From positions 124,001-188,000 of the forward strand of contig NZ_PGOI01000003.1 of NCBI RefSeq assembly GCF_002794355.1: a DNA stretch of 64,000 nt, in the 5' to 3' direction. Below the pieces are notes generated by a model that saw only the letters and a program-made list of their open reading frames with translations, ran no database searches and was not told where the DNA came from. Source of the stretch: Pseudorhodobacter sp. MZDSW-24AT (GTDB taxonomy: Bacteria; Pseudomonadota; Alphaproteobacteria; Rhodobacterales; Rhodobacteraceae). Of this stretch, positions 46,259 through 57,181 are shown one piece after another. Both the position numbers and the translations under genes were made by a program. How positions within the stretch are numbered: the stretch's first letter is position 1; every line of letters starts with the position of its first letter.

Positions 46259-47326
46259 TCAACCTGCGTTTTGCGGCAATCGGTCGGGTGCCGGGCCGCA
46301 AGACTGACGTTCCACGAGGCGGCAGGCCAGTTCTATGCGGCGGGCGGGCATGTGGGTGCCCAAGGTCAGGTCGCGCAGCAGATCGACAGCGGCGGCGCCG
46401 ATGTGTTGCATCGGAATTTCCAAGGCGGTCAAAGGCGGAGAGAAGAAGGCGCCCTGTGCAAGACCATCCATGCCCAGCACCGAGACATCCTGTGGCACCG
46501 CAATTCCCAAAGTGGCAAGGCCCTGCAGCGCGCCCAAGGCAAGGCTGTCGCTGGCGCAGAGAACGGCGGTAAAATCCAACCCTTTGGAGTCGACACGCTT
46601 TCGCAAGGCCTCGGATGCGCGGTCGGGGAGCCAGTCGGAGAGATCGATCTGAAGCTGTGGGTCTAGGACAGCGCCGCCCGCCGTCATGCGGTCCCGCCAG
46701 CCTTCGACCCGCCGCTCGATTGTGCGGCGGCCACGGTGGCTGAGGAAGAGAATGCGGCGATGGCCAAGCCGCATCAGGTAATCGGTGGCCATGGCGGCGG
46801 CAGCACGGTTGGAAGGTGCCACAGACGACAGCCGCATCAGCGGATCGTCCCCATTCACCAGCACCACCGGCTTGGGAAAGTGCCGGGCGGCGGCAAGCAT
46901 GTCTTCGTCATCCAGCGTCAGGAACAACAGACCCGCGACACGGGGATCGGCTGCCGCTTCGGCAAGCGCCTCACGTTCTTGCGCGGTGGAGGTGATGGCT
47001 TGGGTCACCAGTTCAGCCCGCAAGAGGCGCACCCGCTCTTCGATGCCCTGCATCACATTCAGGGTGAATTGGCTGCGGGCGTAATCCTCCATCGCGGCAG
47101 GGCTGGCGAGGATCAGAAGGCGTTGGCCTGCGAGGGTGGAGGGCAGGGTGTAGCGGAACTCCTGCGCCTTGCGCTGGATCTTTTCGACGAGTTCGGGGCG
47201 GACCCCCGGCGCACCGGAGAGCGCGCGCGAGACAGTGGCCACGGAGACGCCGCAGGCGGTTGCCAGATCATCGAGGCGTATTCTGCGGCTGGGCTTGCCG
47301 CTTTTGCCAGAGGGAACAGTGCGCAT
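46259..47326 (-). CDS. LacI family transcriptional regulator of the uronide locus
   Basis: A 355-residue regulator. The HTH is RLDDLATACGVSVATVSRAL followed by the GAPGVRPELVEKIQ hinge region, then a sugar-sensing domain of the PBP type. The ATG at 47326 has an AGGAAAG site; a TTG start at 47362 is less likely. It is divergent from the GH105 gene, whose upstream region contains two inverted repeats. It most likely represses the GH105-kduI-transporter operon and responds to a uronide intermediate. Confidence 0.92.
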   Translation of the reverse strand: MRTVPSGKSGKPSRRIRLDDLATACGVSVATVSRALSGAPGVRPELVEKIQRKAQEFRYTLPSTLAGQRLLILASPAAMEDYARSQFTLNVMQGIEERVRLLRAELVTQAITSTAQEREALAEAAADPRVAGLLFLTLDDEDMLAAARHFPKPVVLVNGDDPLMRLSSVAPSNRAAAAMATDYLMRLGHRRILFLSHRGRRTIERRVEGWRDRMTAGGAVLDPQLQIDLSDWLPDRASEALRKRVDSKGLDFTAVLCASDSLALGALQGLATLGIAVPQDVSVLGMDGLAQGAFFSPPLTALEIPMQHIGAAAVDLLRDLTLGTHMPARRIELACRLVERQSCGPAPDRLPQNAG

Positions 47327-47356
47327 GAGAGGGGCTTTCCTGAATGACGTTTCATT

Positions 47357-47393
47357 CTGCAAAAAACTTTCATCTTGTGCAAATTTTTTGCAG
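47357..47393. promoter_or_regulatory. Inverted repeat between lacI and GH105 genes
   Basis: CTGCAAAAAA and TTTTTTGCAG, perfect 10-bp arms 17 bases apart. It may hold two regulator half-sites or a promoter-overlapping operator. Confidence 0.5.
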
Positions 47394-47439: not shown

Positions 47440-48540
47440 ATGCGACCACAGGCGGACCTGATCCGGCAGAAGCTGGGGCAATTGGTGCGGGGTTTGACCG
47501 ACCTGCGCCATGAAGGCCAGTTTGACGAGCCCAATCTTGACGGGACGGCAGGGGATTACATCAGCTTTGACAGTTGGGAATGGCCTCAGGGCGTGGGGCT
47601 GTATGGGCTGGCGCAGCTGTGGCGGCGGCATCGTGACCCCGCGCTGCAAGCGTTGCTGGAAGCGTGGTATGCACGGCAGTTGGACCAAGGTTTGCCTGCG
47701 CTGAACATCAACACCACGGCGCCGATGCTGGCCTTGTCGCTTTTGTGGGGCGAGACGAGAGATCCGCGCTGGCAACCTGTGCTGGACGATTGGGCGAACC
47801 GCTTGATGCGCGATGCGCCACGCACCACCGAGGGCGGCTTTCAGCATGACGTGTCTGACAAGATGAACCCGGGGGAGTTGTGGGATGACACGCTGTTCAT
47901 GGCGGGCCTGTTTCTGGCGCGCTATGGGCAGGCTTCGGGGCGGCAGGAGCTGGTGGATGAGGCGATCCGGCAGTTTCTGGTGCATGCCCGCTATCTGTCA
48001 GATCCCCAGACGGGGCTGTGGTTCCATGGCTGGACCTTTGAGGGGAGGCATAATTTTGCCCGTGCCCGCTGGGCGCGCGGCAATGCGTGGGTCACGGCCT
48101 GCATTCTGGATTTGTTCGAGATTCCGGGCCTGCCGGGCTCCGTGCGGCTTTACCTGACCGAGGTGCTGCGTGCGCAGGTGGAGGCTTTGTTGCCGTTGCA
48201 GACCCCATCGGGTGCGTGGCGCACTTTGCTGGACGATCCCACCAGCTATGAAGAGATCAGCGCGACGGCGGGTTTTGCCTATGGGCTGCTGAAGGCGGCC
48301 GGGCAGGGCATCGGCGGCGCCGATTGGGCCGAGGCCGGATGGCGGGGCGTGGCGGCAGTCTTGGCCAACATCGACGCTGCGGGCACCGTGCAGAACGTGT
48401 CTTATGGCACGCGCATGGGGCCGGACTTGCAGTTTTACCGCGATATTCCGCTGCAGCCGACAGGATACGGGCAGGCCTTGGCGATCCTGTGTCTGGTGGA
48501 GGCAGAAGGCCAGTTGGACGCAAAAGGAGCGGCGGCATGA
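47440..48540 (+). CDS. Glycoside hydrolase family 105, unsaturated uronyl hydrolase
   Basis: A 366-residue cytoplasmic (alpha/alpha)6 enzyme that removes the 4,5-unsaturated uronic acid from the non-reducing end of oligosaccharides left by pectate or rhamnogalacturonan lyases. Family traits are WEWPQGVGLYGLAQLWRR, the catalytic Asp in ELWDDTLFMAGLFLARYG, GLWFHGW and ARWARGNAWVTACIL. It lacks a signal peptide, so it acts after uptake. Its stop codon overlaps the kduI start. Confidence 0.9.
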   Translation: MRPQADLIRQKLGQLVRGLTDLRHEGQFDEPNLDGTAGDYISFDSWEWPQGVGLYGLAQLWRRHRDPALQALLEAWYARQLDQGLPALNINTTAPMLALSLLWGETRDPRWQPVLDDWANRLMRDAPRTTEGGFQHDVSDKMNPGELWDDTLFMAGLFLARYGQASGRQELVDEAIRQFLVHARYLSDPQTGLWFHGWTFEGRHNFARARWARGNAWVTACILDLFEIPGLPGSVRLYLTEVLRAQVEALLPLQTPSGAWRTLLDDPTSYEEISATAGFAYGLLKAAGQGIGGADWAEAGWRGVAAVLANIDAAGTVQNVSYGTRMGPDLQFYRDIPLQPTGYGQALAILCLVEAEGQLDAKGAAA

Positions 48541-49370
48541 TGGATGTGCGCTATGGCGGCAATCCCGCCGATGTGATGACCGCCACCACCGATCGCTTGC
48601 GCGCCGATTACATGGTGGAAGGGGCCTTTACGCCCGGTGCCTTGCGGCTGACCTATACCCATGTGGACCGGATGATCTTGGGCGGCGCGGTGCCGACCGA
48701 TGCGCCGCTGAGCTTTGGCGATGGGGCTGAACTGGGCACGGCGTTTTTCTTTTCCGACCGCGAGGGCGGCTTGGCCAATCTGGGCGGGCCGGGCGTGGTG
48801 GTGGTGGATGGCACCGACTATGCGATGGAGAACCGCGATATCCTGTATATCGGTCGCGGGGCGCAGCGGGTGGAGATGCGCAGCGTGGACGCCGCGCATC
48901 CGGCGTGGTTTTACCTGAATTCGGTGCCTGCGGGCGCAGATCACCCCACCCGGCTGATCCGCCGCGATCAGGCCAAGCACATCACTTTGGGGGACCCGGC
49001 CAAGGCGAATGTGCGCAGTCTTGCGATGTATATCCACCCCGAGGTCTCGCCTTCATGCCTTTTGCTTATGGGCATCACCGATCCGGCCCCGGGAAGCATC
49101 TGGAACACGATGCCGCCGCATCTGCATGAACGCCGCATGGAGGCCTATTGTTATTTCGACATGGGCGCCGAGGATCGCGTGATGCATTTCATGGGCCGCC
49201 CGGACGCCACGCGGCATATGGTGATTGCCAATGGCGATATGGTGCTGTCCCCGGCATGGTCCATTCACATGGGGGCGGGCACCGGGCCCTATGCCTTTGT
49301 CTGGGGCATGACCGGCGAAAATCAGGCCTATACCGACTTTACCCCCGTTCCCATCTCTTCGCTTAGGTAA
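48537..49370 (+). CDS. kduI: 5-dehydro-4-deoxy-D-glucuronate isomerase
   Basis: A 277-residue cupin-like enzyme isomerising the keto-uronate released from unsaturated uronides to 3-deoxy-D-glycero-2,5-hexodiulosonate. Visible are LTYTHVDRMILGGAVP, FFFSDREGG and the zinc site in NTMPPHLHERRMEAYCYF, with a later His in WSIHMGAGTGPYAFVWGM. Length and sequence are those of KduI. Translation is coupled to GH105 (ATGA). The next enzyme of the route, KduD, is not in the window. Confidence 0.95.
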   Translation: MMDVRYGGNPADVMTATTDRLRADYMVEGAFTPGALRLTYTHVDRMILGGAVPTDAPLSFGDGAELGTAFFFSDREGGLANLGGPGVVVVDGTDYAMENRDILYIGRGAQRVEMRSVDAAHPAWFYLNSVPAGADHPTRLIRRDQAKHITLGDPAKANVRSLAMYIHPEVSPSCLLLMGITDPAPGSIWNTMPPHLHERRMEAYCYFDMGAEDRVMHFMGRPDATRHMVIANGDMVLSPAWSIHMGAGTGPYAFVWGMTGENQAYTDFTPVPISSLR

Positions 49371-49379
49371 GCATCTGAC

Positions 49380-51854
49380 ATGCAAGGCTTTCTGTCCCAT
49401 CCCCTGACTTCTGGCGCGGCCCTTGGCTATTGGCGTCTGGGCTCCACGCTTGAGGCGCGCTTCGATTTGCCCGACATGCCCATGAAGGGGGAGATGGACC
49501 CGTTCTTTTTTCTGACCAAGGACAAGAACTTCATCCCGCATGAATATCCCTGCCGCACCCAGTTTGCGGCGGATCGCCGGGATCAGCGGCCCGACGTGAC
49601 TGGGCGCTTTGAAGGGGCGCGGAACTGGTTGCCTTTCGGCTCGCCCCGGTTGGATTTGTCGGGATTCTGGTTCCGGCCGACCCATATTGCGACTTGGGCG
49701 GAGACGGTGATCCGGACCAAAGCGGCAGGCACGGCGCGGCTGCGACTGCGCACCTGTGGTGGCGCAGTGCTGTTTGTGAACGGCACGGAAGTGGGCTGGA
49801 TGGCGCCCTATAAGCGCAATGCCGAAACCTCGGCCGAATTTCAGGTCGCACTGCACGCGGGCGATAACGCGGTGCAGGTGTTCTTTGACGATCTGGCTGA
49901 GCGGGATGCGCGCTATTACATCCAGCTGGATTGGGTGGAGGGGCCAGAGGCCGAGGCGGGTATTCCCACCGCCTGCACCACGGAGCGTGCCCGTGCGATG
50001 GAGACGGCGCTGGCCACCATGCACTTTGACCAACCTGCCTATACCGGCGGTGAGGTGTCTTTGGTGCTGCCGCAACCGATGCCGATGGCTGTGGAGGTGG
50101 CGATCCGGGTCGAGGGCGATTTCATGTCGCATCATCCGGCGGCGTTGCACCGCAAGCTGGACGCGGGGGCGGCGCGTTTGGTCATAGACCGCGCAGAGAA
50201 CTTGCCGGGCGATTTTCGACATTTCATTCCCACGCTGACGGCCGATGGCTTTGCCGCCACCCGCACTTTCGGGGTGGAGGTATGTGATCTGGCCGCACAA
50301 GGCACGGCGCCTGCGACCTTGGAGTCGCGGATTGACGAGGCGCTGACATGGGTGGCCACGCGGGCCGAGCCTGACACGGTGGCGGCACTGGCACGGCTGG
50401 CGCAGGGGCTGTCTGGCCCTGAAACCGAAGCGATGATCGACGCGACCCTCCCCGCGATCGAGGATTGCTGGGATTGCGCCGATTTCGCGCTGGTGCCGCT
50501 GCTTTGGGGGCGCACCCGGTTTGGGCATTTGCTGTCTGACCGGGTGCGCGACCGGATTGACGCGGCCATTCTGGGCTATCGTTACTGGATGGACGAGCCG
50601 GGCAACGACGTGCAGTGGTATTTCAGCGAAAACCACGCGCTGCTGTTTCACACCTCGGCCTATCTGGCGGGGCATTTGTTGCCCGAAGCCACCTTCCGCC
50701 GGTCGGGGCGCACAGGCGCCGAACAATCGGCAGTGGGGCGCGACAGGGTGCGGGCCTGGCTTGACCATTTCGAGGCATGGGAGATGGCCGAGTTCAACTC
50801 GGCCCCCTATTTCCCGATTGATCTGAAGGGTTTGACTGCGCTTTACGCGCTTTCCCCCGATGCCGACATCCGCGACCGCGCAGGCCGCGCCGTCGTGCGG
50901 CTGGTCGAGGTGGTCGCCAATTCGGCGCATCATGGGGTGATCACGGCGGCGCAGGGGCGCAGCTATGAGCACACTTTGCGCGCCGGGCGCACGCTGGAGC
51001 TTTCGGCCATCACCCGGATGCTGTGGGGCATGGGCAGTTTTGGCGCACGGTTCCACTGCCTGCCGGGCCTTGCCTTGGCGCTGCGGGACCACGGGCTTGA
51101 ACTGGATGCCGCGCTGTCCGAACGGGCGAGCCTGCAGTCCGGGGAGCAGGAATGGGCGTTTGCGCAAGGCGAAGGGTGCTTTGCCGCGCTGTATCATGCC
51201 AAGACCCGCGATTGGGCGATGGGGTCGGCGGCGGCCTATCGCTGGTTCGACTGGGGCTATCAGGAGACCTTGCTGCATGCGCGCATGGGCACCGATCCCG
51301 ATGCGCAAATCTGGATCAATCATCCGGGCGAGGTCATCCATTCGGGCTACGGACGCCCGTCCTATTGGGGCGGATCGGCTTCGGTGCCGCGCGTGCAGCA
51401 ATACCGTGGTCTGGCCTTGGTCTGGTTTGACGGTCAACCCGAGCAGCCCGATTTCACCCATTGCTGGTTTCCGGGACTTGCGTTTGATTACAGTCTGTTG
51501 AAAGGTGATCTTGCAGCGGCGACTGCAGGAGAAGGAGGCCTGTTGATCCGTGCGTCGGGTCCGCTGGAGATGGTGGCCGAAGGGCCGACGGCGGGCTGCG
51601 AGTTGCGACTGGCAGGGCGACAAGGCTGGTGGATCGTGCGGATGGGCCGCGCTGCGCAGGGGCTGGACGCTTACGTAACGCAATATGCGAAACTTACCCC
51701 TGACGCCTTGGCCGATGCCCGTGCTACGGTCACGGTGGAAGATCCAGACTACGGCCCGGTCATGTTCCATGCCGATGGCCGGATTGAGGCAGAGGGGCGC
51801 ACAGTCAACCCGAAGGAATGGACGGTCGCAGGGCACAGAACCCTGCACCGCTGA
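49380..51854 (+). CDS. Unassigned 824-residue cytoplasmic protein of the uronide locus, probable carbohydrate-active enzyme
   Basis: I do not recognise the family. There is no signal peptide, so it should act in the cytoplasm. Residues about 85-200 look like a beta-sandwich carbohydrate module (LSGFWFRPTHIATWAET, RLRLRTCGGAVLFVNGTEVG, NAVQVFFDDLAERDARYY), as found before the barrel in rhamnosidases. Residues about 310-660 are helical with repeated pairs suggesting an (alpha/alpha)n toroid: NDVQWYFSENHALLFHTSAY, YFPIDLKGLTALYAL, QGRSYEHTLRAGRTLEL, WFDWGYQETLLHARMG. A beta-rich end (700-824) follows. This three-part plan resembles polysaccharide lyases and GH families with toroid domains. It lies between kduI (9-base gap) and the transporter, so a role in cutting the imported oligosaccharide is likely. 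Confidence 0.7.
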   Translation: MQGFLSHPLTSGAALGYWRLGSTLEARFDLPDMPMKGEMDPFFFLTKDKNFIPHEYPCRTQFAADRRDQRPDVTGRFEGARNWLPFGSPRLDLSGFWFRPTHIATWAETVIRTKAAGTARLRLRTCGGAVLFVNGTEVGWMAPYKRNAETSAEFQVALHAGDNAVQVFFDDLAERDARYYIQLDWVEGPEAEAGIPTACTTERARAMETALATMHFDQPAYTGGEVSLVLPQPMPMAVEVAIRVEGDFMSHHPAALHRKLDAGAARLVIDRAENLPGDFRHFIPTLTADGFAATRTFGVEVCDLAAQGTAPATLESRIDEALTWVATRAEPDTVAALARLAQGLSGPETEAMIDATLPAIEDCWDCADFALVPLLWGRTRFGHLLSDRVRDRIDAAILGYRYWMDEPGNDVQWYFSENHALLFHTSAYLAGHLLPEATFRRSGRTGAEQSAVGRDRVRAWLDHFEAWEMAEFNSAPYFPIDLKGLTALYALSPDADIRDRAGRAVVRLVEVVANSAHHGVITAAQGRSYEHTLRAGRTLELSAITRMLWGMGSFGARFHCLPGLALALRDHGLELDAALSERASLQSGEQEWAFAQGEGCFAALYHAKTRDWAMGSAAAYRWFDWGYQETLLHARMGTDPDAQIWINHPGEVIHSGYGRPSYWGGSASVPRVQQYRGLALVWFDGQPEQPDFTHCWFPGLAFDYSLLKGDLAAATAGEGGLLIRASGPLEMVAEGPTAGCELRLAGRQGWWIVRMGRAAQGLDAYVTQYAKLTPDALADARATVTVEDPDYGPVMFHADGRIEAEGRTVNPKEWTVAGHRTLHR

Positions 51855-51858
51855 AGAC

Positions 51859-51879
51859 GCCCCGGCGGGAGGCCGGGGC
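51859..51879 (+). other. Hairpin upstream of the second binding protein gene
   Basis: An 8-bp perfect stem GCCCCGGC / GCCGGGGC with a 5-base loop, no T-run. It may protect the downstream binding-protein message or mark a processing site. Confidence 0.6.
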
Positions 51880-51899
51880 ACAATGGAGGAGGAAAACAC

Positions 51900-53162
51900 A
51901 TGAAGAAAACAATGATCGTGCTGGCTCTTGGGGCCAGCCTGATGGCCACGACGGCCCTTGCCGGGGACGTGCGGCTGATGTGGTATTCGGATGGGGTCGA
52001 GGGCGAGGTGATGAAAGACCTTGTCGCGCGCTTCAACGCCGACAATCCGGGCATCAATCTGATTCTGGACGAGGTCGCCTATAAGGTCGTCCAAGAGCAG
52101 TTGCAGATCCAGCTGGAGGCAGGATCGGGCCCCGATATCGCGCGCGTCACCAACATCAAGACGCTGGCGCCGCATTGGCTGGACCTCACCCCGCATCTGT
52201 CGGATGCTGAGTATTGGCGCACCAACTTTGGCGCCCATGCGGACTGGATGCGCGAAGATGGCAGCGATGCGATCACCGGCTTCATGACGCAGTTGACGCT
52301 GACGGGTGGCTTTGCCAACTCGACCCTGTTCGAGCAGGCGGGCGTGGCGCTGCCGGGCGAAGGCGCGACCTGGGACGATTGGGTGAACGCGGCGGATCAG
52401 GTGGCGAAATCGCAAGGCACGGCGGCGGCCTTTGCCATCGACCGCTCGGGCCACCGGATCTCGGGGCCGAATGTGTCTTATGGCGCGAATTACATTGGGG
52501 CCGATGGCCTGCCTGCACCCGTGGATGAAGGCACCAAGGCCTTTGCCGAAAAGCTTGTGAACTGGGTTGAAGGCGGGCAGATGCTGCGCGACACTTGGGT
52601 TGCGGCCTCGGGGTCTACCTACCGCGCGGCGGCAGATGACTTCATCAACGCGGCGATCCCGTTCTATTATTCGGGAAGCTGGCAAATTGCCAACCTGTCC
52701 ACCAAGATTGGCGACGGTTTCGACTGGGTCGCCACTGGTTCGCCCTGCGGCACGGCCGGATGCTCGGGGCTGGCGGGGGGCGCGGCCTTGGTTGCGGTGA
52801 AATACACGCAGAACGCCGAGGAAGTGGCCAAGGTCATGGAGTATTTCGCGCGTGAGGACATCGTGAAAGAGTTCTCGGAACGCACGCTGTTCCTGCCCGC
52901 TCATGCCGGGGTCGCTGCCGCGGGCAATCTGAACTGGCAGACCGAGGATGACAACGTCAAGGCTGCGCTGGATGCTTATGTCGCGGCGGCGGCCGAGACC
53001 TTGCCGGCAGCGGATGCCTTGCCCGCGTGGAAATGGGCCTCGCCCGTTTACGGCGCGCTGGTGAACCGCATCAGCCAAGTGATGGCAGGCGAATTGACGC
53101 TGGAAGATGCCTATGCGCGCATCGACCAGGACATCGCCGAACAGGTCGCGGCGGCGCAGTAA
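51900..53162 (+). CDS. CUT1 ABC transporter substrate-binding protein, uronide-type oligosaccharide
   Basis: A 420-residue periplasmic protein with a signal peptide (MKKTMIVLALGASLMATTALA). The family 1 fold shows VRLMWYSDGVEGEVMKDLVA, QLQIQLEAGSGPDIARV and FYYSGSWQIANL. A Cys pair (SPCGTAGCSG) probably forms a disulfide. An AGGAGGAAAAC ribosome site precedes the ATG, one of the strongest in the window. Context points to oligogalacturonides or rhamnogalacturonan fragments, comparable to TogB; that is inference. Confidence 0.92.
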   Translation: MKKTMIVLALGASLMATTALAGDVRLMWYSDGVEGEVMKDLVARFNADNPGINLILDEVAYKVVQEQLQIQLEAGSGPDIARVTNIKTLAPHWLDLTPHLSDAEYWRTNFGAHADWMREDGSDAITGFMTQLTLTGGFANSTLFEQAGVALPGEGATWDDWVNAADQVAKSQGTAAAFAIDRSGHRISGPNVSYGANYIGADGLPAPVDEGTKAFAEKLVNWVEGGQMLRDTWVAASGSTYRAAADDFINAAIPFYYSGSWQIANLSTKIGDGFDWVATGSPCGTAGCSGLAGGAALVAVKYTQNAEEVAKVMEYFAREDIVKEFSERTLFLPAHAGVAAAGNLNWQTEDDNVKAALDAYVAAAAETLPAADALPAWKWASPVYGALVNRISQVMAGELTLEDAYARIDQDIAEQVAAAQ

Positions 53163-53165
53163 GCC

Positions 53166-54179
53166 ATGACCGGGGTCAAGGGAATGTTGGGGGCCGTGGT
53201 GACGGCCCCCCTGGTCGCGCTCGCCCGTGTGCTGGAGGTGCCGTTGCGCCTGTGGCAGCGGCTGACGGGGCAGGGCGGCATGGTGGCGTTTTTCCTGCTG
53301 CCAAACATGGCGATCTTCACGCTGTTCGTCCTGCTGCCGCTGGTCATCAACATCGCCTATTCGATGACGACCGGCGCGGCCCTTTTCCTGCCCGAACGCA
53401 CCTATGTGGGGGCAGCGCAGTATGAACGTTTGCTGCGCTGCACCGATTACACCAATCTGATGACCTGTCAGGAAGATCAGTTCTGGATTGCCTTGCGCAA
53501 CACCGGCACCTTTGTGGTGCTGCAGGTGACGCTGCTGATTGTGGCCGCGACCATCACCGCGCTGATCCTGAACCGGGCGCTGCGTGCGCTCAGCTTCTGG
53601 CGGGCTGTGTTTTTCTTCCCGGTGCTGTTGTCGCCGGTGGTGGTGGGGCTGATCTGGCGCTGGATCCTTGACCGCAATGGGGTGCTGAATGCCGCACTTG
53701 TGGGCATGGGGATGGACCCGGTGAACTGGCTTTTGGAGCGCAATTATGCGTTCTCTGCCGCCATCGGAGTCACCATCTGGGCGCATCTGGGGTTCTTTGC
53801 GCTGATCCTGCTGGCCGGATTGCAGGCGATCCCGCGTGATCTTTACGAGGCCGCCGAGATGGACGGCACCAAGCCTGCGCGCGTGTTCTGGCGGATCACC
53901 TTGCCGCTTCTGATGCCCAACATGCTGGTCGTCATCGTGCTGGCGCTGATCCGTGCGGTGCAGGTGTTTGACGAGGCCTATGTGCTGACCGGCGGTGGTC
54001 CGGGCACGGCCACGCTGTTCCTGACGCAGTATATCTATGAAGTGGGCTTTGCCTCCTTGCTTAAAAACCCGGGCCTTGCGGCGGCGGCGTCGATCCTGAT
54101 GGGGGGCGTGCTGATTGTGCTGACCCTGTTGCAACTGGCGCTTGGCAAACGCAACGAGCGGAAAGGACGCCTGAAATGA
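53166..54179 (+). CDS. Sugar ABC transporter permease (TogM/MalF type)
   Basis: A 337-residue inner-membrane protein with six main hydrophobic segments after a cytoplasmic N-terminus of about 35 residues. A periplasmic insertion after the first segment (RTYVGAAQYERLLRCTDYTN and the following residues) is longer than in the first transporter and contains two Cys. The EAA loop is PRDLYEAAEMDGTKPARVFW. It starts 3 bases after the binding protein gene and overlaps the next permease (ATGA). Confidence 0.93.
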   Translation: MTGVKGMLGAVVTAPLVALARVLEVPLRLWQRLTGQGGMVAFFLLPNMAIFTLFVLLPLVINIAYSMTTGAALFLPERTYVGAAQYERLLRCTDYTNLMTCQEDQFWIALRNTGTFVVLQVTLLIVAATITALILNRALRALSFWRAVFFFPVLLSPVVVGLIWRWILDRNGVLNAALVGMGMDPVNWLLERNYAFSAAIGVTIWAHLGFFALILLAGLQAIPRDLYEAAEMDGTKPARVFWRITLPLLMPNMLVVIVLALIRAVQVFDEAYVLTGGGPGTATLFLTQYIYEVGFASLLKNPGLAAAASILMGGVLIVLTLLQLALGKRNERKGRLK

Positions 54180-55225
54180 GCCGTGCACTGGCCTTTCTGA
54201 CCCGGCGCAAAGGCGGCGACGCCTGGGACTGGACGGATGTTTTCACCTTCCTGTGGCTGGGATCTGCGGTGTTCATCATGTTCGGCCCGGCCTTGTGGTT
54301 GGTGCTGTCGTCCTTCAAATCGCCTGCCCAGCTTGCGGAATTTCCGCCGACCCTTTTGCCCTATGAGGCGCAGACGGTGGTGGTTGAGGGTTTTGACCGC
54401 CCCTTGCCTCTGTTTTCGGTGACGGATGAGGCGGGGACCCGCACTTTGGCCGAGGTGCGCCGCGTGGGCACCGTGGCCCAGATGGTGGACCCGGAAAACC
54501 CGGGCGAAGTGCAGCGCGTGAACATTGCCAACCGCACCCCCGTTCGTGAGGTTGGGTTTTCTTGGGGCAACTACCTCGACCCGTTCCTGCGCTTTGACTT
54601 TCTGAACTACACCAAGAATTCGATCTTTGTGACCGGGGTGGCCACCTTGATCACCTTGCTCACCAATTCGATGGCGGCCTTTGCGCTGTCGAAATACGAA
54701 TTCCGGGGGCGGGGCTTTGTGGTGGTGCTGATCATCGCCACGCTGATGATCCCGCTGTCGGTGATCCTTGTGCCACTGTATTCCATCGTGTCGGGGGTGG
54801 GGCTGATCAACTCGCTGTGGGGGGTGATCCTGCCCACGGTGGCCACGCCCACAGGGGTGTTCTTGCTGCGGCAATACATGCTGACGATCCCCGATGAGCT
54901 GCTGGAGGCGGCGCGGATGGACCATGCCAGCGAATGGCAGATCTATTGGCGGATCGTGCTGCCGCTGACCGCACCTGCCTTGGCTGTTCTGGCGATCTTC
55001 TCGGTGGTCTGGCGCTGGAACGATTTCCTGTGGCCCTTGATCGTGCTGAGCCGGCAAGAGGTTTACACGCTGCAAGTTGGCCTGAATGCTTATGCCGGAG
55101 AGCTGAACGTGCAGTGGCACTATCTGCTGGCGATGACCGTCATCACCATGATCCCGGTCGTTCTGGTCTTTATCTTCCTGCAACGGTTCATCACGGCGGG
55201 CATCGCCGGGACCGGGTTGAAATAA
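54176..55225 (+). CDS. Sugar ABC transporter permease (TogN/MalG type)
   Basis: A 349-residue inner-membrane protein. The first membrane segment is followed by a periplasmic insertion of about 90 residues (KSPAQLAEFPPTLLPYEAQT to GFSWGNYLDPFLRF), found in permeases for larger oligosaccharides. Five further segments follow, with the EAA loop PDELLEAARMDHASEWQIYW. The ATGA overlap with the preceding gene implies coupled translation. Confidence 0.93.
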   Translation: MSRALAFLTRRKGGDAWDWTDVFTFLWLGSAVFIMFGPALWLVLSSFKSPAQLAEFPPTLLPYEAQTVVVEGFDRPLPLFSVTDEAGTRTLAEVRRVGTVAQMVDPENPGEVQRVNIANRTPVREVGFSWGNYLDPFLRFDFLNYTKNSIFVTGVATLITLLTNSMAAFALSKYEFRGRGFVVVLIIATLMIPLSVILVPLYSIVSGVGLINSLWGVILPTVATPTGVFLLRQYMLTIPDELLEAARMDHASEWQIYWRIVLPLTAPALAVLAIFSVVWRWNDFLWPLIVLSRQEVYTLQVGLNAYAGELNVQWHYLLAMTVITMIPVVLVFIFLQRFITAGIAGTGLK

Positions 55226-55235
55226 GGGGTCCGTC

Positions 55236-56291
55236 ATGGGTCGCATACAGTTGCACGACATCCGCAAGAGCTTTGGCGCCGTCGATGTGCTCAAGGGCAT
55301 CGATCTGACCATCAACGAAGGCGAGCTTGTGGTGTTCGTCGGCCCTTCAGGCTGTGGGAAGTCCACGCTTTTGCGGATGATCGCAGGCTTGGACAAGCCC
55401 AGTTCGGGGCGGATCGAGATTGACGGGGTGGATGTGACCCCACGCTCGGCCGCCGATCGCGGGCTTGCCATGGTATTTCAGTCCTATGCGCTTTACCCGC
55501 ATATGACGGTGCGCGCGAACATGGCCTTTGGCCTGCAAAACACCAATATGCCCAAGCCCGAGATCGACGCCCGCATCAGTGAGGCCGCGCGGATGTTGGA
55601 GATCGAGCCGCTGCTGGACCGCAGGCCGGGCCAGCTTTCGGGCGGGCAGCGGCAGCGGGTGGCCATTGGCCGCGCCATCGTGCGGCGCCCGACGGCCTTT
55701 TTGCTGGATGAGCCGCTGTCGAACCTGGATGCCGAGCTGCGCGTGTCGATGCGGGCCGAGCTTTCGGCTTTGCATGATCGGCTGGGCGCCACGATGATCC
55801 ATGTGACACATGATCAGGTCGAAGCGATGACGATGGCAGACCGCATCGTGGTGTTGCGGGCGGGCAAGGTGGAGCAGGTGGATACACCGCTGAACCTGTT
55901 CAACCGTCCGGCCAATCTGTTCGTAGCGGGCTTTATCGGCGCGCCGGGGATGAACCTGTGGGCTGGGCAGGCGAAGGATGGGGCTGTGCAGTTGGACAGC
56001 GGCGCGCGCTTGCCCTTGCCTTCGGGCGTGACAGTGCCGGAGGGCTCGGTCACGCTTGGCATCCGCCCGCAACATCTGCGCCCGATGGCCGGTGGCCCGG
56101 TCCGGGCCGAGGTGCGGCTGATCGAGGCCTTGGGGCCGGAAAGCGTGGTGCATGGCGATATGGGCGCGGGCGGCACACTGTTGGCGGTGCTTGCCGGGCA
56201 GCCGGATCTGGCACGCGGCACGGTGATCGAGCTGGGCTATGATCCGCAGATGGCGCATGTCTTTGGCGCCGATGGCCAGCGGCTGGCCTAG
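55236..56291 (+). CDS. Sugar ABC transporter ATP-binding protein (UgpC/MalK type)
   Basis: A 351-residue ATPase. Walker A is FVGPSGCGKSTLL, the signature is LSGGQRQRVAIGRAIV, Walker B is AFLLDEPLSNLDAE and the switch His is in IHVTHDQVEAMT. The TOBE part includes TLGIRPQHLRPM. It ends the plus-strand operon; its TAG stop shares four bases (CTAG) with the stop codon of the convergent hydrolase gene. Confidence 0.95.
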   Translation: MGRIQLHDIRKSFGAVDVLKGIDLTINEGELVVFVGPSGCGKSTLLRMIAGLDKPSSGRIEIDGVDVTPRSAADRGLAMVFQSYALYPHMTVRANMAFGLQNTNMPKPEIDARISEAARMLEIEPLLDRRPGQLSGGQRQRVAIGRAIVRRPTAFLLDEPLSNLDAELRVSMRAELSALHDRLGATMIHVTHDQVEAMTMADRIVVLRAGKVEQVDTPLNLFNRPANLFVAGFIGAPGMNLWAGQAKDGAVQLDSGARLPLPSGVTVPEGSVTLGIRPQHLRPMAGGPVRAEVRLIEALGPESVVHGDMGAGGTLLAVLAGQPDLARGTVIELGYDPQMAHVFGADGQRLA

Positions 56292-57181
56292 GCCAAAGCC
56301 TGCGCCATGAAATCGAGCATTGCGTGGTGCATGGCTTGGGTTTCGACATGGCCCGAGGTCGGTTCCCGGTGAAGCATCAGGCGCCCGCCCTTTGCGGCGT
56401 AAGCGCCCTGCACCTGTTCCAACGCAGGATCCGCGGCCTTGGGCGGGGTGAGGGGATCGAGGTCACCCAGACCGATGAACTGCGCGCGCGGGGCGATCAG
56501 CCCTGCGATTTCCCCATTTGACGCGCGGGCAAGCAGTCCGGGCACGGTCAGGTAGATGCCATGCAGATCATGCTGGCCCATGGCGATCAGGTGTCGGTAA
56601 TCTGCAAAGCAGCATTCATGCGCCACGGCGCGCAGACGGGGTTCAATCGCTCCAAGCCAATAGGCCAATGTCGCCCCCATCGACAGGCCGAAAACCCCAA
56701 GCCGATCGGGCTGCACGTCGGGATGCCGGGACAGCCAATCCACCGCCGCCAGATTTTCGGCCAGCATCTGCCCCGCGAGCGAGCGACCTTCCCACAGAAG
56801 TGCCTTGGTCGCGGCGCTTTCGCTGACGTCCGCGCGGCTGCCAAAGCAAGGCATGTCGAGGCAGAGTGAGGCGATGCCGCGCGCGGCCAAGGCAGGGCCG
56901 GTGGCGGCGAAGAGGGCGGGGCGGCCGTGGATCATTTCCGCCGCGCCGATGTCATAGCGGTTGCCATGGGCATGAATGATCAGAACGGCGGGGGTGGGCC
57001 GCTGTTGGCCGACAGGCCGACACCAGAAACCACGAAACCGGGTTTCGCCCAAGCTGACCGCCAGTTCCTCTGCCCGGCAGTTTGGGGTGTCGACGACGGT
57101 GGCCCCCGCGTGTGAGGTGAGTGGGGGCACTGGCAGGGCCAAGCCGAAAGCAGAGAGGAGGTCTTGGCGCGTGAGGGGCAT
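56288..57181 (-). CDS. Alpha/beta hydrolase, dienelactone hydrolase/esterase type
   Basis: A 297-residue serine hydrolase. The oxyanion loop is IIHAHGNRYDIG, the nucleophile Ser is in VFGLSMGATLAYW, the acid is probably in FIGLGDLDPLTPP, and the His in PTSGHVETQAMHH. The first 30 residues are not clearly a signal peptide. It could be a deacetylase for acetylated pectin fragments, given the adjacent operon, but it is on the opposite strand and the substrate is unknown. The stop codon overlaps that of the ATPase gene. Confidence 0.8.
   Translation of the reverse strand: MPLTRQDLLSAFGLALPVPPLTSHAGATVVDTPNCRAEELAVSLGETRFRGFWCRPVGQQRPTPAVLIIHAHGNRYDIGAAEMIHGRPALFAATGPALAARGIASLCLDMPCFGSRADVSESAATKALLWEGRSLAGQMLAENLAAVDWLSRHPDVQPDRLGVFGLSMGATLAYWLGAIEPRLRAVAHECCFADYRHLIAMGQHDLHGIYLTVPGLLARASNGEIAGLIAPRAQFIGLGDLDPLTPPKAADPALEQVQGAYAAKGGRLMLHREPTSGHVETQAMHHAMLDFMAQALA

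Follow-up and report, generated by a model that had tools for sequence, protein, structure and literature searches.

A putative uronide dehydratase or exo-lyase of an apparently new sequence family encoded beside GH105-like hydrolases

The glycoside hydrolases of the GH105 and GH88 families are usually viewed as acting on the products of polysaccharide lyases. However, according to one report, an enzyme classed in GH154, a family whose members were originally reported as hydrolases, shows no hydrolase activity and instead dehydrates the non-reducing-end glucuronic acid, yielding a substrate for GH88, and genes of this type often lie beside those for GH88 or GH105 (PMC12269599). Similarly, a study on ulvan breakdown describes P29_PDnc as dehydrating a non-reducing-end uronate ahead of GH105, and GH105 enzymes as serving glucuronides, too (PMC8511951). 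Here we describe a gene located in a stretch of 64,000 nucleotides from Pseudorhodobacter sp. MZDSW-24AT (contig NZ_PGOI01000003.1, positions 124,001 to 188,000; the whole of this stretch is referred to as the window). The 824-residue product of this gene, hereinafter the focal protein, probably prepares acidic sugars, once imported, for the enzyme that follows in the pathway by introducing a double bond into them. Both its predicted fold and its invariant residues are indicative of beta-elimination, as in a dehydratase or an exo-lyase, rather than of a glycosidase.

Sequence family and distribution

A preliminary description of the window placed the focal gene in a uronide utilisation operon, between kduI and a sugar importer, and took its product to be a cytoplasmic protein of no recognised family, and each of these statements stands. 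The ATG codon of the focal gene follows the kduI stop codon (49368-49370) after 9 bases, and 45 bases separate its own stop codon from the gene for the solute-binding protein, which starts at 51900. No signal-peptide-like stretch was found near the N terminus by 12-residue hydropathy, with a best value of 0.86 compared to 2.34 for the neighbouring solute-binding protein, which does have such a stretch. A contig scan yielded a main set of 79 loci (the best 80 of 83 stretches), and the frame is more than a chance one because, at 77 of these loci, the focal protein aligns over more than 700 residues with 53.7-90.3% identity.

Sequence searches with the focal protein produced no matches in Pfam (E up to 10), NCBIfam (E up to 0.1) or PADLOC (E up to 1), and the single match in PHROGs (E 0.21) was not usable. 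Among the PDB sequences, phmmer found no match at E up to 10, and no usable match emerged when two alignments served as hmmsearch queries. When 29 aligned family sequences (28 of the 33 representatives at 85% identity and the window protein) were scanned singly against Pfam, only scattered weak matches appeared, the best of these, to Pentapeptide_3 in four members, at E 0.006; neither PF10022 nor PF07940 nor any other lyase model was among them. Profile comparison with hhalign likewise showed no match to DUF2264 (6 or 11 sequences; E 0.055-0.13, probability 0.5-1%) or to 14 heparinase II/III-like proteins, those with a usable frame among 25 fetched loci (E 0.62), although remote homology could escape alignments of so little depth (Neff about 2.2-3.8). 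A literature search, which was confined to functional terms, the family being without a name, and which mostly did not cover subscription journals, found no paper on these proteins. Taken together, the comparisons support a new sequence family, from which these searches reached no characterised one.

The main set extends from Pseudotabrizicola (about 90% identity) via Rhizobiales to Salinicola and Halomonas (54-55%). The family was detected in 9 of the 398 genomes sampled from the phylum and in 11 of 101 relatives, the source genome being included in both counts, and in 200 plasmid records, 123 of them from Rhizobium; among the 60 of these 200 records that were listed, every named protein is annotated as 'hypothetical protein' or 'hypothetical conserved protein'. 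No match was obtained in E. coli genomes by blastn, for which the query was a homologue taken from a different genome of the phylum. Two more distant groups, subfamily 2 and subfamily 3, show about 31-32% and 27-31% identity, respectively. A haloarchaeal (Haladaptatus) plasmid encodes a 661-residue protein (L127:11800-13785) with 32% identity over residues 347-582, which has the toroid and, as it seems, also the beta domain, without the N-terminal jelly roll. The Haladaptatus gene is surrounded by genes for Gfo/Idh oxidoreductases, a heparinase II/III-like protein is encoded about 8 kb away, and no GH105-like gene was found within 12 kb of it.

Predicted fold and invariant residues

The predicted models of the focal protein comprise a jelly roll, an (alpha/alpha) toroid and an antiparallel beta domain (Table 1), in agreement with the layout proposed in the preliminary description. 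When the whole model was compared to known structures with Foldseek, GH2 enzymes led the list (the best 50 of 142 matches at E<=0.001), so the core was folded and searched alone. The 24 chains that the core model matched at E<=0.001 belong without exception to eliminases or to an epimerase; GH146 and GH127 appeared only as weak matches, with E 0.0097 and 0.014. In the model, the resemblance of the core to toroid polysaccharide lyases, which had also been anticipated, spans both the toroid and the antiparallel beta domain (379-440 residues). Membership in GH2, defined by a jelly roll combined with a (beta/alpha)8 barrel, was rejected: the resemblance is limited to the N-terminal jelly roll, and the core is predicted to be a toroid.

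The motifs of the toroid are SENHALLFH (416-424), EFNSAPYFPID (471-481) and QGRSYEH (525-531), and those of the beta domain are INHPGE (646-651) and GRPSYWGG (658-665); the two motifs that the preliminary description singled out are both highly conserved in the 29 aligned sequences. In a set of 91 sequences, which covers four divergent groups and includes many close relatives, E417, N418, H419, H424, E471, S474, Y477, D481, R527 and Y529 are invariant, and position 648 is occupied by histidine in 88 sequences and by glutamine in three. The active-site loops are poorly modelled. Putative counterparts of the lyase-type Asn/His, Tyr and beta-domain His were assigned in the focal protein by residue order and spacing. 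In particular, H419 and Y477 are 58 residues apart, compared to 56 in Alg17c (H202-Y258) and 55 in heparinase II (H202-Y257), as read from the mutant names in PDB titles, and Y477 is separated from H648 by 171 residues. In the lyase BcPL35, Tyr232 and His387 are 155 residues apart, the H387A mutant is inactive, and the activity of Y232A is about 3-fold lower (PMC12269599).

The order of the focal motifs, ENHxxxF...Y...GRSY, also parallels that of DUF2264, NNWxxF...GRSxxY. The equivalence of DUF2264 and GH154 was checked, and a DUF2264 protein indeed matches PDB entries 9o4u and 9nwf, both of the GH154 enzyme BcGDH, and 8oi4. GRSxxY is present in 11 of 11 DUF2264 sequences and NNWxxF in 9 of 11, and it is exactly the arginine of GRSxxY that is missing in the inactive-mutant entry 9nwf. 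The BcGDH work lists ten inactive alanine mutants, including N176, N177, W178, F181, Y229, R285 and Y289, with the authors' caveat that chondrosine is a poor substrate, and proposes Tyr289 as the acid, Tyr229 as the base and Arg285 as a helper (PMC12269599). Since hhalign detected no relationship, the likeness of the motifs is a similarity of pattern and no proof of homology.

The conserved operon

The genes that surround the focal gene are listed in Table 1 with the number of loci at which homologues occur. The reading frames of the GH105-like gene and kduI overlap, with the ATG of the latter at 48537 and the stop codon of the former at 48538-48540. At 73 of the 76 loci with a GH105-like gene, this gene is on the same strand as the focal gene and less than 4.5 kb upstream of it. 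The three loci without a match are L060, where the record begins inside the gene, L061, and L062, which combines the focal gene and the importer without genes for the GH105-like enzyme or KduI; the upstream open reading frame of L062 presumably encodes a relative of fructuronate reductase/mannitol dehydrogenase, judging from its N-terminal sequence. Of 16 further loci (one of which, L099, is on the same contig as L063), 15 contain a GH105-like gene, including all nine from subfamilies 2 and 3, the exception being the haloarchaeon. Because it holds across divergent subfamilies, this linkage points to joint action of the focal protein and GH105 rather than to mere proximity of their genes. By contrast, the linkage to kduI, which the preliminary description had coupled with that to GH105, holds in the main set but is found for only one of the nine subfamily-2 and -3 genes examined (L095). 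The subfamily-3 locus L159 has a GH105-like gene and its own set of genes for a solute-binding protein, permease and ATPase, with no KduI match in the 18 kb fetched. KduD-like dehydrogenases are encoded near the focal gene at 36 of the 79 loci; the short-chain dehydrogenase/reductase family is large, and some of these could be other enzymes.

Table 1. Features of the focal locus, in window coordinates; neighbouring genes were counted as homologues at 40% identity or more
Feature	Coordinates	Strand	Remarks
LacI-family regulator, divergent	46259..47362	-	homologue at 73 of 79 loci
GH105-like unsaturated uronyl hydrolase, PF07470	47440..48540	+	homologue at 76 of 79 loci
KduI, 5-dehydro-4-deoxy-D-glucuronate isomerase	48537..49370	+	homologue at 76 of 79 loci
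Focal gene, putative uronide 4,5-dehydratase / exo-lyase	49380..51854	+	824 aa, ATG start
Jelly-roll domain, like GH2 N-terminal domain	49407..49949	+	residues about 10-190
(alpha/alpha) toroid	50310..51143	+	residues about 311-588; predicted models
Antiparallel beta domain	51144..51824	+	residues about 589-815; predicted models
GC-rich hairpin, focal stop codon to solute-binding protein gene	51852..51899	+	minimum free energy -20.6 kcal/mol, z -4.67; 0 of 200 shuffles equally stable
ATP-binding cassette (ABC) importer, solute-binding protein (SBP_bac_1)	51900..53162	+	homologue at 74 of 79 loci
ABC permease A	53166..54179	+	homologue at 74 of 79 loci
ABC permease B	54176..55225	+	homologue at 73 of 79 loci
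ABC ATPase, UgpC/MalK type	55236..56291	+	homologue at 74 of 79 loci
Alpha/beta-hydrolase, possible esterase, accessory	56288..57181	-	homologue at 28 of 79 loci

The PF07470 ('GH88') neighbour proved closest to GH105 structures in the PDB search, its relatives of the GH105 type being 3pmm, 3qwt and 4xuv. The NCBIfam label 'beta-galactosidase BglB', which this protein receives above the cut-off, was set aside and may be a misannotation: in the PDB, the protein is most closely related to GH105 entries or to a cytoplasmic protein without a name. Nothing relevant to it came up in the literature search.

The hairpin that follows the focal gene lacks a long T run and may set the level of expression of the enzyme relative to the importer genes; a similar CCCCGG hairpin, for which no shuffle control was run, is present in six near relatives. 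On the opposite strand, an open frame of 1711 codons (49053-54188) spans the focal gene and is, by all appearances, an artefact of GC-rich frames.

Proposed function and comparison with known systems

That the focal protein performs beta-elimination of some kind appears likely. Our more specific proposal, for which the chances seem about even, is that it is a uronide dehydratase, with water as the leaving group, that primes saturated ends for GH105, a role modelled on that of BcGDH for GH88. What has been shown is the gene, its operon, the conservation, the fold as predicted and the invariant residues, from which we infer the chemistry, the roles of the residues, the leaving group and the substrate as follows. 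An oligosaccharide bearing a uronic acid would be imported through the neighbouring ABC importer or, in some relatives, a tripartite ATP-independent periplasmic (TRAP) importer, and its non-reducing-end uronate would be bound by the toroid of the cytoplasmic enzyme. The carboxylate would be neutralised by Asn/His (N418/H419) and Arg (R527), the C5 proton would be taken by Tyr (Y477, perhaps with Y529), and the C4 group, most likely water, would leave. From the resulting 4,5-unsaturated uronide, the GH105-like enzyme would then release, by hydrolysis, 5-keto-4-deoxyuronate, which KduI and KduD, the latter encoded elsewhere in the genome, would pass towards 2-keto-3-deoxygluconate (KDG).

The principal alternative, a cytoplasmic exo-lyase that removes a 1,4-linked sugar from the uronate and leaves an unsaturated uronide on a neutral sugar for GH105, seems rather unlikely, but several observations weigh in its favour: the match of the whole predicted core is best to lyases, which also speaks against dehydration, with the two-domain fold shared with Alg17c (PL17), Atu3025, GAGase VII and heparinase III, the H419-Y477 spacing is close to that in Alg17c and heparinase II, and H648 is nearly always present. 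Our preference for dehydration rests on the following consideration: GH105 has a task only if the unsaturated uronate stays glycosidically linked, so that a lyase would require at least a trisaccharide. Yet the Pseudosulfitobacter unit, which consists of genes for GH88, a TRAP importer, KduD, LacI, KduI and the focal protein, has no other glycosidase adjoining, and this makes a substrate of such length less likely. Furthermore, Gln648 in three sequences argues against a strict need for the lyase-type His, and no sequence match to lyase models was found.

The preliminary description envisaged a new glycosidase or lyase; the new cytoplasmic family and the lyase-like fold are retained, whereas the fold and the residues disfavour the glycosidase. 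A glycoside hydrolase such as a uronidase, taking off a sugar before or after GH105, would be compatible with the GH2-like jelly roll, with the co-location of GH28 and GH105-like genes, with the weak GH146 and GH127 matches and with invariant E417, E471 and D481, which could serve in catalysis. This option is nevertheless improbable given that the core matches comprise only eliminases or an epimerase, and the members of GH154, too, were first reported as hydrolases (PMC12269599). A C5-epimerase resembling dermatan sulfate epimerase, which would isomerise the imported uronide for later enzymes, is very improbable as epimerisation alone yields no GH105 substrate. Finally, a non-catalytic or regulatory uronide-binding protein, for which nothing speaks directly and only the poor modelling of the active-site loops can be cited, is scarcely credible given a polar cluster invariant throughout four divergent groups.

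With regard to the substrate, GH28 genes adjoin GH105 genes in the two subfamily-2 loci examined for this feature, a hint of galacturonides in those loci, and in Rhizobium leguminosarum 248 the order is focal gene, GH88, GH28 and ABC importer. In the source genome, a profile search whose control matched found no PF00544 pectate lyase; the only GH28 gene is on another contig, and a further contig, C4, carries adjacent genes for a KduI-like and a KduD-like protein, the KduD-like one at 74% identity. These checks do not fix the substrate, and a pectin-derived one, as suggested in the preliminary description, is possible.

Among the known systems, the toroid lyases (GAGase VII, BcPL35, Alg17c of PL17, heparinase III, BtPL33HA, Atu3025 and chondroitin ABC lyase) combine a toroid with an antiparallel beta domain as the focal model does, and seem to share with the focal family the conserved NH...Tyr and, usually, the beta-domain His, which is replaced by Gln in the three sequences mentioned above. 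Unlike the toroid lyases, the focal family does not match PF07940 or other lyase models, and the focal gene belongs to an importer operon in which it has a GH105-like neighbour.

Co-location with GH88 or GH105 is common to the focal family and GH154. Membership in GH154 was considered and dropped, there being no match to PF10022 or, with the shallow alignments compared, to the profiles of GH154/DUF2264 proteins (BcGDH, BT_3677), and the exact motifs differing from NNWxxF and GRSxxY of BcGDH, which are alike in order only. Moreover, the focal protein has the GH2-like jelly roll and the beta domain, whereas the solved BcGDH has about 400 residues; the long DUF2264 proteins have a C-terminal domain of their own. 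DUF2264 genes are similarly placed in Asticcacaulis, where the order is kduI-GH88-DUF2264, and on a plasmid of E. coli, where it is GH88-DUF2264. In three other DUF2264 plasmid regions, the annotation of the 3-6 kb flanks includes neither GH88 nor kduI. The source genome itself has a DUF2264/GH154-type gene (L145, contig C25) about 3.4 kb from a match to PF07470 that falls short of the family cut-off and may, therefore, hold two uronide-priming systems.

The focal protein appears to fit the same slot as GH154 and P29_PDnc because it is intracellular, has a predicted toroid fold and is nearly always encoded with a GH105-like enzyme, joined in the main subfamily by KduI. The logic proposed for it, dehydration on behalf of GH105, is that of P29_PDnc, whose key residues are reported to be Asp248, Lys303 and an arginine that appears in print as R230 and in a list as R300, Tyr306 being dispensable (PMC8511951); in the focal family, the invariant residues are Asn, His, Tyr and Arg. 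Conceivably, although here the chances fall somewhat short of even, the family is a third, sequence-unrelated group of oligosaccharide 4,5-dehydratases, cytoplasmic and placed behind ABC or TRAP importers in Alphaproteobacteria, Salinicola/Halomonas and others of the phylum, and dedicated to turning saturated uronide ends into substrates of GH105. If so, a 'hypothetical' protein would gain a precise, easily assayed function, and a small, recently discovered kind of enzyme would gain a member by a separate sequence route. Should the family make the GH105 substrate intracellularly, saturated uronides would take the place of lyase products in many rhizobial and marine operons. Together with GH154 and P29_PDnc, 'dehydrate, then hydrolyse' would then be a general alternative to uronidases.
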